Below are positions 51,638 to 61,003 of a stretch of DNA of 64,000 bases, piece by piece. The position numbers and the translations under genes are program-made. Below the pieces are notes generated by a model, which saw only the letters and a list, made by a program, of their open reading frames with translations, did not search any database and was not told the origin of the DNA. This stretch comes from an uncultured Alphaproteobacteria bacterium (GTDB lineage: Bacteria > Pseudomonadota > Alphaproteobacteria > HIMB59 > GCA-002718135). How positions within the stretch are numbered: the first letter of the stretch is position 1; each line of letters begins with the position of its first letter. The stretch lies in contig CACEMR010000001.1 of NCBI GenBank assembly GCA_902560725.1, positions 1 to 64,000 of the forward strand. The letters run 5' to 3'.

Positions 51638-53146
51638 TTAAGAACTTAATAATTTTTTCTTCCAAGTATCATAAGATAGCTCTACAAAAAGATTTTTATC
51701 ATCACCTAGCAATTTTTTAATCTCATAATAAGTATTACCTGGCCCACAGAAATGATATTTTTCTTTAATTTCTGGATATTTTTCTAAAACCAACTTGAAA
51801 GCAGAACCACTCATCCAATAAAAAAAATTTTTTTTGTATACATCAATCTCAAAATCAAGTTTTTGTAACTGATAAGTATTAATTTTATTTTTTATAGTAC
51901 TTTCAAATGAAGAACTATGTGTTAGCTTAATCCATGGAAAATCTGTGAGAGAATTAATATTATTTTCAAATCCCTCACCAAGTCCATCAGAACTGCCATT
52001 AACCCATATTCCGCGATCAGCTAATTTCTTCCATGTTTTTAAGCCACTTGACCAAATTATATTGTTTGAATTAATTTTTGCATCATTTTGAAGTGCGCTT
52101 ATTCGGGAAATAAAAATACATTTATTTTTTAAGTTATTTACTTCTAAAATAGTATTATTTAACTCTTTTCGCTGGAAAATTTTATAAGAATTTAGATCTT
52201 CTGGATATATTTCATCTTCACCACTACAAAAAAATTTTTCTTTCTTTTCATTGATTAAATCCCAACTTTCAAAATGGTTTCCATTTTCATCTTCTCCTCT
52301 TTTAGAAACAATAGTACCTAATGAATGAGTGATATATGAAACTCCAATTTTTTGATGGCAGCCACCACCATATATTTTTAATATATTTCTCTCATTTTCA
52401 ACATTAAAGAAATCGTTATCAAAATTAATATCATTCAGTATATGATTTAAATGATCATCATTATCTCGAGTCTCAATTGCAAGCGCCCCTTGACCAGGGG
52501 AACAAGGATTTATTGATAAAGGTATTATTGTCCATAGACATTCGTCAATATAACTCTTTAATATTTTTTTTAATTCATCAAACTCAGGAACATTGTTCAA
52601 AAGGATTCTATCTATTGCAGCTTTAGCTACAATAAATGCATCACTAGATGGATTTTGTAAAAACTTTTTGAATCTTGTGGGAATATTTCCTCTTATATTT
52701 TCAAATTTTATTTCTTCATATTTATTTGGAAGAAAATTTTTTATAAATTTGTTTACGTTGTACTGTCTTCTTGGAGAGGAACAGAGGATGGTAATTTCTT
52801 TTTTATCATTGTTTTTATTTTTTTTAAGAAATAAAATATCTCTTTTATCTGCTCTTTGTAATGTTGCTGCAATTTTAGTTTTATTACCAACTTCAATTGG
52901 CAAATCTTTCCAAGAATGTACTATTAAGTCACATTTTTTGGTTATTAATTCTTCACGAAGATCATTTGTAAAAACGCCCTCTATGGGCATTTCAGATAAA
53001 GGTGTGATTAAATCTTTATCTCCTGAAGTGCTTTTAGTTTTATAATCTATTTGAATATCAGGGTATTTAGAATTTAAATACTCACCAAATTCACGAGCTT
53101 GAATTGTAGCTAAATCACTTTTTCTTGATAAAACTTTTATTTTCAT
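51638..53146 (-). CDS. hemC: Hydroxymethylbilane synthase fused to a divergent HemD-like C-terminal domain
   Basis: VHSWKDLP, PGQGALAIETR, cofactor-Cys motif GGGCHQKIG; about 170 additional C-terminal residues. Confidence 0.85.
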   Translation of the reverse strand: MKIKVLSRKSDLATIQAREFGEYLNSKYPDIQIDYKTKSTSGDKDLITPLSEMPIEGVFTNDLREELITKKCDLIVHSWKDLPIEVGNKTKIAATLQRADKRDILFLKKNKNNDKKEITILCSSPRRQYNVNKFIKNFLPNKYEEIKFENIRGNIPTRFKKFLQNPSSDAFIVAKAAIDRILLNNVPEFDELKKILKSYIDECLWTIIPLSINPCSPGQGALAIETRDNDDHLNHILNDINFDNDFFNVENERNILKIYGGGCHQKIGVSYITHSLGTIVSKRGEDENGNHFESWDLINEKKEKFFCSGEDEIYPEDLNSYKIFQRKELNNTILEVNNLKNKCIFISRISALQNDAKINSNNIIWSSGLKTWKKLADRGIWVNGSSDGLGEGFENNINSLTDFPWIKLTHSSSFESTIKNKINTYQLQKLDFEIDVYKKNFFYWMSGSAFKLVLEKYPEIKEKYHFCGPGNTYYEIKKLLGDDKNLFVELSYDTWKKKLLSS

Positions 53147-55987: not shown

Positions 55988-56146
55988 TTAGTTATTTATT
56001 TGAATCCCCGTCTCTTTACTTCCACTTATTTTAAAGTTAACTTTATTTTTATTACCATCCTCTAAACTAGAAATAGATGACATTTTGCATCCTAACAATA
56101 TTAAAGTTAGTACTATTGACAAATACCTATAGATCCAAGTGAACAT
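55988..56146 (-). CDS. Small lipoprotein ORF, 52 aa: MFTWIYRYLSIVLTLILLGCKMSSISSLEDGNKNKVNFKISGSKETGIQINN
   Basis: Not in the supplied ORF track; lipobox LILLGC after a hydrophobic signal; 5' end overlaps the end of the upstream pentapeptide-repeat gene on the same strand. Confidence 0.6.
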   Translation of the reverse strand: MFTWIYRYLSIVLTLILLGCKMSSISSLEDGNKNKVNFKISGSKETGIQINN

Positions 56147-56616
56147 TTTTTTCCATCTACCCAGATTGCATTTGATAAGTTGGCTTCTTCAAAAATTGCT
56201 CCAGAAATGTTAGCTCCTAATAAATTTGCTTCATATAAATTAGCACCCTTAAAAGATGCTCCAAATAAATTTGATCCTTCAAAATTAACTTTTGCTAAAT
56301 TAGCATTATCAAAATTTGCGTTATTACAATTAGCGCCTTGTAAATTTGATGCATATAAATTTGAGTTATTAAAATTTGAAAATATAAAATTACCTATAGA
56401 TAGGTTCGAATTGTTAATTTGTGCTTTTTCAAAATTTGAAAGAGATAAATTGACACCAGACATTTGAGAGTTTGCCATACCTGCACCAGATAAATCTAAA
56501 TTTTCGACAAAATTACAATTTGTCCAATCAACCTCGTTTGATGGCTGATCACCACATGCGGCATAAGATAAAGACGAATGAAACAAAATAGATATAAATA
56601 GAAATAAAATTTTCAT
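56113..56616 (-). CDS. Secreted pentapeptide-repeat protein
   Basis: Signal peptide MKILFLFISILFHSSLSYA; A(N/D)Lxx-type repeats such as NNANFDNANLAKVNFEGSNLFGASFKGANLYEANLLGA. Confidence 0.88.
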   Translation of the reverse strand: MKILFLFISILFHSSLSYAACGDQPSNEVDWTNCNFVENLDLSGAGMANSQMSGVNLSLSNFEKAQINNSNLSIGNFIFSNFNNSNLYASNLQGANCNNANFDNANLAKVNFEGSNLFGASFKGANLYEANLLGANISGAIFEEANLSNAIWVDGKKCSLGSIGICQ

Positions 56617-56657
56617 TAATATAAAATATGACTAGTTTATGTTTAATTTAAGGCAAA

Positions 56658-58424
56658 TTATCTTGAAGTCAACTTGAGTTCAATTCTTCTGTTTTGTTGA
56701 AAATCACTATCAGTTTCTCCATCACTTATTGGATAAAACTCACCATATCCTGCTGCTGCAAGTCTATTGGGAGAAAATCCTAGATCGAGTAATAATTTAA
56801 GTACTGAATTTGCACGTGCTGTAGATAATTCCCAATTTGATGGAAATTGGGTTGTTTTAATTGGCCTTTTATCAGTATGACCTTCAACCATAATAATCCA
56901 ATCAATGTCATTGGGTATCTGATTCGTTGTTTCTTTTAATGTTAATCCTATCTCACTTAGTTTTTGCTTACCTGAAATTTCCAAATCATCTGAAGCAGAC
57001 TCAAATAATAATTCTGACTCAAAAATAAATCTATCTCCAACAATTTTTATATCTTCTCTATCTCCTAAAATAGATTGAAGCTTTCCAAAAAATTCTGATC
57101 GGTATTTTTGTAATTCAAATACTTTAGAAGTTAATGCTTTATTTAATTTCTCACCTAAAACCTCAATTTCTAAATCTTTAATTTGTGTATCTCTCTCACT
57201 AGCATCTAAAGCACTATTTAATAATACGATTTCTTGTTGCAAAGTATCTATTTGATTTGAGAGTATTTCTACTTGTTCCAATGTTTTTGAAGATTGAGTT
57301 TCCATTTTTTTGATCTCATTTAATGATATTTCTTTTTGAATCTGACTCTCCTGTTCTAGTAATGTTATTTGATTTTGAAGTAACTCAAGTTTTTGAAGTT
57401 GTGCTTGCTGTTTATCTTCAGATAAAGATAAGATATTATTTAATTCAGATATTTTGCCTCTTAGACTAAAAATAGTACTATCCTTTTGAATTAAATCATT
57501 ATTAAGCTTTGCCAATTCTTCATTTTTAAACCTAATTGCATTTAACTGATCTTTTAAAGATGCATCTTTAAGCCCCAGGCTGTCATTTATTTTTAATAAA
57601 TCGTTTGTTAATTCTTGATACTGAGCAATCTGAGTTTGTAATTCTTCATCTCTTAAAGAAAGTTGGATATTTGTTTTTTCTAATTCATTATTTAATTCTA
57701 TTAGTTCTTCATTTTTATTTTTTATTGCTAATAATTGTTCTTCTATACCTCCTTCTTCAATGCCCAAGCTCTCATTAATTGATAACAGATTTTTATTTTT
57801 TTCATTTAACTCATTGATAGTATCCTTCAGTGATTTTTCGCTATCTAAAAGTTTAAGATTTGTGTTGTCTAGTTCTTCATTAAGAGTTTTTAACTGGTCA
57901 ATTCTTGAGGTAAGTGCCTTATTAATTCTTTCACCCAATCCCTCAGTTTCAAGCAAGGTAATTTTTTGACCTTCATATGTTTCTAAAGCATTTGCTACAA
58001 CTCTTAACTCTTTAAGTAAACTGCTAATTTGATCGGATAATGCAAGAATGTTTTGTTCTTGAACAAAAATTTCTGATCTTTTTTTTGCAATATCCTCTTG
58101 GAGTTGCTCACTTTGGAGTTGTTCTAATTTTAAACTTGATTGACTCTCTTCTAACTGTTCCTGAGTTTGCGAAAGGGATGAAAGAGCCTTTTCCTTATCT
58201 TGAGTTTCAATAACTAATATTTTAGATAATTCATTTATTTGCACTCTTAGATCTTGAAGAGCTTTATCTCTTCCAGAAATTGCATCACTTAAATAAATTT
58301 GTGACACAGTAAATACCATTAAGACAAAAATTATTACTATTAAAAGAGTAGCAAGAACATCAACAAAGCCTGGCCAGATATTTGTTGTATCTGCAAGTCT
58401 ATTTCTTAAAGACCTAGTAGCCAT
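56658..58424 (-). CDS. MotB/OmpA-like protein: N-terminal TM, long coiled coil, C-terminal peptidoglycan-binding domain
   Basis: WPGFVDVLATLLIVIIFVLMVF with TM Asp; coiled coil; OmpA motif VEGHTDKRP...NWELSTARANSVLKLLLDLG...AAGYGEFYP...NRRIEL. Confidence 0.88.
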   Translation of the reverse strand: MATRSLRNRLADTTNIWPGFVDVLATLLIVIIFVLMVFTVSQIYLSDAISGRDKALQDLRVQINELSKILVIETQDKEKALSSLSQTQEQLEESQSSLKLEQLQSEQLQEDIAKKRSEIFVQEQNILALSDQISSLLKELRVVANALETYEGQKITLLETEGLGERINKALTSRIDQLKTLNEELDNTNLKLLDSEKSLKDTINELNEKNKNLLSINESLGIEEGGIEEQLLAIKNKNEELIELNNELEKTNIQLSLRDEELQTQIAQYQELTNDLLKINDSLGLKDASLKDQLNAIRFKNEELAKLNNDLIQKDSTIFSLRGKISELNNILSLSEDKQQAQLQKLELLQNQITLLEQESQIQKEISLNEIKKMETQSSKTLEQVEILSNQIDTLQQEIVLLNSALDASERDTQIKDLEIEVLGEKLNKALTSKVFELQKYRSEFFGKLQSILGDREDIKIVGDRFIFESELLFESASDDLEISGKQKLSEIGLTLKETTNQIPNDIDWIIMVEGHTDKRPIKTTQFPSNWELSTARANSVLKLLLDLGFSPNRLAAAGYGEFYPISDGETDSDFQQNRRIELKLTSR

Positions 58425-58426
58425 TT

Positions 58427-59452
58427 TTATTTTTTAATTTTCTTTATTTCTTTTTCAATATTCTGAAAATATTCTTTTATTTTTTTTGCTTCCAAAATTC
58501 CATTTTTACTAAGTGACTCTGTTAAACTGATTAAAGAAGATTGTGTATTTAACTGTGTAGATAAAAAGTTTGACAATTGTTTGTCTGTTTTTTCAGAATT
58601 TGAATTAATTTTATTTAAAACTTCATTAAATTTGTCAAAATTTTTTGAAATTTTATTTTGATTTTCAAACGACTGTTTTAAAGCATTTACAATATTTTCT
58701 AAATTATCATAAATTTTTTGAATTGCTGCTGTTGTTGGTTTATCTTCCTTATTTGTGAATTCCGGAGAAGAATTTGATGAAAGAATATTTTCAAAAAATT
58801 GGCTGTATTTATTTTGTGCTTGGCCTAGATTTAAATCGAGCAGTCCAAGTATAAGCGATCCAGCTAAACCTAGCAAAGAACTGCTAAAGGCAATGCTCAT
58901 ACCTTCTAGCGGAGCGCTTAAACCATCTTTTAGTGAATTAAAAAAACCTGCTACATTAGTATCATCAATACCTAAGCCACTTATAACGTTACCTACTGAT
59001 CCAATAGTTAGAAGCAATCCCCAAAATGTTCCTAATAAGCCTAAAAAAACTAATAGCCCAACAAGATATCGTGAAGTTTCTCTTATATTAACCAAAGTCA
59101 TATCAGAATTTTCAATCAGCCTATCAATGGATGTACTTTTAAAAACAAATCTTCCATCTAAATTTTTTAATTCTAATGTAATATTTTTATCTGAACCTCT
59201 CAGATTAACAAAGGATTCTAAAGAATTGGTGATATTAAAGTTAGAGAGTGAGATAAACTTATAATTTAAATTAATTAAGTGATAAAAATTAAAAATTAAG
59301 CCAATAATCAAACTTAAAAGAATTATAATATTAATAAAAATATTTGATAAAAAGGCATTTTGTAATACTGGATATAGTAATACAACTATTACAAAAACCA
59401 AAAGTAAAAAAATTGATGCTCTAATTATATAATTATTTAAAGATTGTGACAT
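58427..59452 (-). CDS. MotA/TolQ/ExbB-like proton channel protein with C-terminal helical tail
   Basis: LVGLLVFLGLLGTFWGLLLTIG and LSAPLEGMSIAFSSSLLGLAGSLILGLLDL. Confidence 0.88.
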   Translation of the reverse strand: MSQSLNNYIIRASIFLLLVFVIVVLLYPVLQNAFLSNIFINIIILLSLIIGLIFNFYHLINLNYKFISLSNFNITNSLESFVNLRGSDKNITLELKNLDGRFVFKSTSIDRLIENSDMTLVNIRETSRYLVGLLVFLGLLGTFWGLLLTIGSVGNVISGLGIDDTNVAGFFNSLKDGLSAPLEGMSIAFSSSLLGLAGSLILGLLDLNLGQAQNKYSQFFENILSSNSSPEFTNKEDKPTTAAIQKIYDNLENIVNALKQSFENQNKISKNFDKFNEVLNKINSNSEKTDKQLSNFLSTQLNTQSSLISLTESLSKNGILEAKKIKEYFQNIEKEIKKIKK

Positions 59453-60778: not shown

Positions 60779-61003
60779 CTATGCAGCAATTCGACGGTTT
60801 TTTTGAGCTTCTTTTTCTTTTTTAAGCTCTTTTTCGTCAATATATGCTACATCACAATGACTTTGACAATAGGGTTTACCTGCCACTGTCTTTGCTTCAC
60901 AAAAATGAAATTCCTTTTCTTGAGGATCTCCTATAGGCCATTGACAGTTAGAAAAACTGTGCATAACACTATTTTGTTTGAAGTAGTTTTTTAAAATTGA
61001 CAT
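60779..61003 (-). CDS. GcrA-like protein, C-terminal domain only (74 aa)
   Basis: NCQWPIGDPQEKEFHFCEAKTVAGKPYCQSHCDVAY matches the GcrA C-terminal motif; an in-frame TAA lies just upstream of the start. Confidence 0.75.
   Translation of the reverse strand: MSILKNYFKQNSVMHSFSNCQWPIGDPQEKEFHFCEAKTVAGKPYCQSHCDVAYIDEKELKKEKEAQKNRRIAA

Follow-up and report, generated by a model that had tools for sequence, protein, structure and literature searches.

A probable non-flagellar, ion-driven motor pair of Alphaproteobacteria with a heptad-set coiled coil and affinity to ZorA–ZorB

Introduction

Two adjacent genes for a stator-like A subunit and B subunit in an uncultured alphaproteobacterium raise the questions of what such a pair does away from a flagellum, and of whether two small genes that follow it encode parts of the same machine. 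The window considered here is the whole stretch of DNA that was analysed, 64,000 nucleotides of a contig from the HIMB59 lineage; the source genome (1.43 Mb, 47 contigs) is 90% complete, and the close relatives with which it was compared are marine single-cell genomes. An earlier note, made from the sequence of the window, had proposed a four-gene envelope module, namely a non-flagellar stator-type machine with a pentapeptide-repeat protein and a lipoprotein as its possible partners. A recent survey of non-flagellar stators states that their B subunits lack an OmpA-type anchor; its tree omits ZorAB, and Alphaproteobacteria go unmentioned in it (PMC12505986). This article considers the two subunits, their distribution and neighbours, and the explanations that compete for the locus.

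Gene Organization of the Locus

The four genes of the locus, in the order in which they are read, are as follows.

58427–59452, minus strand: A subunit (MotA/ExbB/ZorA-like), open reading frame (ORF) of 341 aa
56658–58424, minus strand: B subunit (motB-like), ORF of 588 aa
56113–56616, minus strand: secreted pentapeptide-repeat protein, ORF of 167 aa
55988–56146, minus strand: predicted lipoprotein, ORF of 52 aa

The coordinates bear out the order and spacing described in the earlier note, with 2 bp between A and B, 41 bp between B and the pentapeptide gene, and an overlap of 34 bp between the pentapeptide and lipoprotein genes. Codon comparison of the window copy with congeners gave dN/dS values of 0.05–0.16 for motA, motB, and the pentapeptide gene and of 0.22–0.48 for the lipoprotein gene; since each lies below 1, all four are real genes under purifying selection. 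The limit of four genes is arbitrary and not a natural boundary, because two genes of the same strand flank them equally closely, cfa at 50 bp on the upstream side and eamA at 46 bp on the downstream side, and no terminator was found to separate the four genes from either. Promoter and terminator predictions at the locus were in no excess over shuffled sequence. The neighbours of the pair in the window are cfa, a gene for a GcrA C-terminus, eamA, and the genes for ALAS and cytochrome b561. GcrA is a cell-cycle regulator, and the conserved 74-aa gene at 60779–61003 matches its C-terminal end only (profile positions 109–152 of 155). Near the ALAS gene, an ORF of 502 aa (51638–53146) reads as porphobilinogen deaminase-like at its start and is long enough for a fusion with uroporphyrinogen-III synthase, as judged from its sequence.

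The A Subunit and Its Relationship to ZorA

The A subunit is predicted to comprise four transmembrane (TM) helices, a cytoplasmic beta-hairpin between TM2 and TM3, and a helical C-terminal tail. The AF2 model has a pLDDT of 70.6 (medium confidence) and forms the hairpin from two strands in residues 95–105; the helical tail that had been described after the last TM segment is likewise predicted, over about 115 residues that are poorly resolved and of low confidence. The Pfam profile PF01618 matches the window protein weakly (E 0.11) and the A subunits of relatives above its cut-off. The window protein is too divergent for this profile, and its modelled fold agrees with a MotA_ExbB-type assignment, to which the PF01618 matches of relatives and the conserved polar residues of TM3 and TM4 also point: T142 (TM3) and S190–S192 (TM4) are invariant, very divergent Alphaproteobacteria included.

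The absence of flagellar genes, observed earlier for the window, extends in the case of FlhA to the whole 90%-complete source genome, in which no FlhA (FHIPEP) gene was found while flagellated control genomes were positive. The search with PF01618 returned one A subunit from the source genome, the tolQ product of a complete tolQRAB-pal-cpoB cluster (L294) that is separate from the pair. Identification of the pair as an orphan stator of the flagellar kind, or as one of the Tol/Ton type, would fit its membership of the same superfamily and the resemblance of the B-subunit OmpA domain to those of MotB and MotS, but is hardly credible given a genome with neither FlhA nor a flagellar-type A subunit, the separate complete Tol-Pal set, an OmpA domain in B unlike TolR and ExbD, and a tree in which A clusters apart from MotA and TolQ.

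Profile, fold, and tree comparisons instead place the A subunit nearest to ZorA. Both A and B match the PADLOC profiles of ZorA and ZorB, respectively, and the best PADLOC match of the window A subunit is ZorA, with only residues ~84–340 aligned (E 7.5e-12 vs 1e-142 to 1e-269 for genuine ZorA proteins). Foldseek searches with the A model ranked ZorA first to fourth, followed by ExbB and TolQ, and flagellar stators from rank 32, all of these matches having E values above 0.001. In an IQ-TREE analysis of 42 A subunits, the family and ZorA were split from TolQ, ExbB, and MotA (UFBoot 94); the tree is moderate evidence only, because its single alignment is short (about 200 columns) and divergent. 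A beta-sheet in the cytoplasmic loop is said to be unique to Zorya-type A subunits (PMC12505986). Apart from the strong matches described below, matches to the A profile outside the class were weak and mostly to proteins of 675–1074 aa followed by a small B gene, of 208–227 aa in nearly all loci read, and all four such proteins that were run through PADLOC were identified as ZorA.

These affinities could also be taken to mean that the pair is a Zorya anti-phage defence system or the remnant of one, for which the matches of A and B to the ZorA and ZorB profiles and the rank of ZorA as the nearest fold would speak. Such a reading is very unlikely: no ZorC, ZorD, or ZorE-like gene was found among the neighbours examined, PADLOC aligns only part of each protein and at much poorer scores than for genuine systems, with no full-length ZorA match that includes a long tail, and the vertical, core-like occurrence next to efp and suhB does not resemble a defence island.

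The B Subunit and Its Coiled Coil

The B subunit contains a TM helix with Asp22 in WPGFVDVLATLL, a heptad coiled coil of about 400 residues, and a C-terminal OmpA-type peptidoglycan-binding domain (PF00691, E 4e-16), in agreement with the partner that the earlier note had described. It scores 359.1 bits against NF006543 (cut-off 305), and Asp22 and the residues of the OmpA site are invariant among 17 sequences that include distant Alphaproteobacteria, as is appropriate to a B subunit of the 5:2 superfamily.

Hydrophobicity between residues 46 and 453 has a period of 3.50 (power 3.8, vs at most 1.7 in 500 shuffles). The length of B, measured between the WPGFVD motif and the C-terminus, varies in step with this period: a single class modulo 7 accounts for 13 of the 14 distinct lengths in this family and for 5/5 in a sister family (f2), and pairwise differences are mainly 7, 14, 21, 28, 42, and so on. 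Elsewhere in Alphaproteobacteria, where a motif-to-motif distance was used, all 25 distinct distances occupy three of the seven classes modulo 7; these three are offset from one another by 3 or 4 residues, the pattern expected from coiled-coil stutters. Of 16 distances in an independent set, 14 fall in the same three classes, both exceptions coming from one genus. These counts ignore phylogeny, although each distinct length requires an insertion or deletion of its own. A-subunit lengths (341, 346, 347, and 381) follow no heptad rule. Slippage of tandem repeats was considered as the source of the heptad steps and set aside for the window B gene, which has no 21-bp arrays, although older slippage may remain. 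The whole-heptad change in length of the B coiled coil is a new observation, and it implies a rod constrained in register.

A straight rod is not implied, because the AF2 model of B breaks the coil into five helices. Fully extended, the coil would measure about 59 nm, longer than the usual periplasm, so that with the predicted helix breaks the rod must fold or tilt. One B-subunit relative (L214:7531–10266) reaches about 910 aa, and its coil, when extended, would far exceed a periplasm in length. At two loci (L141, L142), the B gene consists of two overlapping ORFs with an apparent frameshift, which in these single-cell assemblies may be an assembly error.

A long coil of variable length ending in an invariant OmpA site is also what might be expected of a static tether, in which A and B would span the periplasm as a scaffold or peptidoglycan anchor and ion conduction would have been lost. 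This explanation is improbable, given that neither Asp22 nor the polar residues of TM3 and TM4 vary even among very divergent Alphaproteobacteria, as expected for an ion path that is in use.

Distribution of the Pair

The pair is no artefact; it is old and occurs widely among Alphaproteobacteria. Of 289 sampled genomes, 182 exceed the NF006543 cut-off, and A lies directly upstream of B in 33/36 loci sampled from many families. It is not universal, since surveys with NF006543 and the A profile found some alphaproteobacterial groups without it. The usual arrangement is efp-suhB-(secreted OmpA-like protein)-A-B, with efp upstream of the pair in 29, suhB in 31, and the secreted OmpA-like gene in 21 of 39 loci. 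The product of the last, encoded between suhB and A (L188:9858–10715 and 20 other loci), is secreted and proline-rich with a degenerate OmpA-like C-terminus, and is likelier than the pentapeptide protein to be the ancestral partner of the motor. No match to it was found elsewhere in the source genome, and the weak matches in relatives are probably Pal.

Across a sample of Pseudomonadota, the A profile matched strongly in 75 Alphaproteobacteria and in five other genomes. The strong A-B matches in these five non-alphaproteobacterial genomes of the same phylum (L255, L256, L257, L258) may reflect transfer or misplaced taxa. Literature searches on the pair by family, operon context, and lineage returned nothing specific and no phenotype, and to our knowledge none has been described.

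The Pentapeptide-Repeat Protein and the Lipoprotein

The third and fourth genes encode what the earlier note had taken them to encode. The third protein has a predicted signal peptide and pentapeptide repeats (PF00805, E 2e-21, 75.5 bits against a gathering threshold of 20.2), with five conserved cysteines; across the genus its identity is 78–86% and its dN/dS 0.07–0.11. The fourth is a predicted lipoprotein, of which the Cys20 lipobox with its flanking residues is conserved in every relative that bears the gene, as is the C-terminal KETGIQIN.

The genome collection yielded 75 loci from the family, 74 of which reach past B and are thus scorable for the pentapeptide gene. This gene directly follows B in all 74, at a distance of 34–43 bp (usually 41) where B is intact, save for one locus with 10 bp (L138). 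The lipoprotein gene is present in 54/74 loci and is restricted to a subclade, being missing from divergent clades and from the divergent half of the genus; in the divergent clades without it, the pentapeptide gene lies about 76 bp from eamA. Gene order in the genus is fully kept (gcrA C-terminus gene-cfa-A-B-pentapeptide-(lipoprotein)-eamA-ALAS-cytochrome b561), and adjacency within the genus is uninformative by itself because this whole block is syntenic. The lipoprotein gene is thus confined to one subclade as a clade-specific extra.

Retention of the two genes beside the pair, which the earlier note had expected of relatives, breaks down beyond the family. In a sister genus (g3; G062), the order cfa-A-B is kept with no pentapeptide gene after B; this genus groups with a pentapeptide-bearing genus (UFBoot 85), so that loss of the pentapeptide gene is more probable than its late acquisition. 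The pair of sister family f2 lies beside PagL and murJ genes with neither small gene, and neither was found beside the pair in any of 39 other alphaproteobacterial loci examined, which also held no pentapeptide homologue. In f2, a gene for a PagL-type lipid A deacylase is directly upstream of the pair (L063:5484–5960, L062:9980–10459). Incomplete genomes in which the pair and the pentapeptide gene are both missing were not counted as evidence, since neighbours drop out together.

It follows that the two proteins are unlikely to be dedicated parts of one four-component machine. The unbroken linkage of the pentapeptide gene to the pair, usually at the same 41-bp gap, the predicted secretion of its product to the right compartment, and the stronger conservation of that product when one half of the genus is compared with the other (80% vs ~64% for A and B) would all suit such a machine, but the pair is kept without the pentapeptide gene in G062, the sister family, and other Alphaproteobacteria, the whole gcrA-to-cytochrome block is syntenic so that adjacency alone proves little, and the lipoprotein is absent from 20 of the 74 loci. 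Since linkage is complete in the scorable loci, the pentapeptide gene and the pair may be functionally linked inside the family, and the pentapeptide protein is a plausible candidate for a periplasmic accessory of the motor in this one marine family.

Proposed Mechanism and Significance

Sequence and model evidence together suggest that the pair at 56658–59452 is probably a motor of the 5:2 superfamily, non-flagellar and driven by ions, with a housekeeping distribution, its A subunit being nearer to ZorA than to TolQ, ExbB, or flagellar MotA. The stator-type machine of the earlier note thus survives in the pair, which has all the expected motor and peptidoglycan-anchor residues, and not as a conserved machine of four parts. 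In such a motor, five A subunits would surround two B subunits, and ions passing Asp22 of B would turn A relative to B. Through the coiled-coil rod of B, torque or tension at the inner membrane would reach the cell wall, and the motor would serve envelope maintenance. In most Alphaproteobacteria examined, the gene immediately before the pair codes for the secreted OmpA-like protein; in the marine family, the secreted pentapeptide-repeat protein encoded immediately downstream may act as an accessory in the periplasm, and the lipoprotein is an addition of one clade.

A more specific proposal, which we regard as tentative, is that the pair represents a housekeeping branch related to the Zorya motor and a separate class of 5:2 envelope machine, in which a B dimer forms a long coiled-coil drive shaft in the periplasm with its length set in whole heptads, and periplasmic partners can be swapped. 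If so, the partner would be the OmpA-like protein in many lineages and the pentapeptide-repeat protein in these marine bacteria, and the Zorya defence motor and the pair would share an ancestor apart from the Tol, Ton, and flagellar motors.

A motor family present in most sampled Alphaproteobacteria appears to lack a described function. The alphaproteobacterial pair is an exception to the published statement on OmpA-type anchors (PMC12505986), and it would provide a non-defence relative against which the evolution of Zorya can be tested. The heptad-quantised length of the B rod offers a direct experimental handle on function versus register.

Comparison with Known Systems

Flagellar MotA–MotB and PomA–PomB share with the pair an A-B operon, a TM Asp, and an OmpA-type peptidoglycan anchor. 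They have a short plug and linker whereas the pair has a heptad coiled coil, and the pair occurs without a flagellum with its A subunit on another branch. TolQ–TolR–TolA with Pal belongs to the same superfamily of proton-driven envelope motors and possibly has a similar purpose, but its full set is encoded separately in the genome and the B subunit here carries an OmpA-type peptidoglycan-binding domain. The model of the protein family NF006543 (PRK09039.1-2, peptidoglycan-binding protein) spans 350 positions, and the window B subunit exceeds it by about 240 residues, which lie in the coil. No function is described for this family, and it is silent on the A subunit.

The closest likeness is to ZorA–ZorB (PMC11890865), which offers the nearest A profile and fold, a cytoplasmic beta-hairpin, and a helical C-terminal tail, and of which ZorB shares with B the TM Asp and the OmpA-type peptidoglycan-binding domain. 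The tail of ZorA extends over several hundred aa compared with ~115 aa here, and ZorB measures ~215 aa in total compared with ~400 aa for the B coil here. Zorya differs further in that the pair has no ZorC, ZorD, or ZorE neighbours and resides in a core-genome context.
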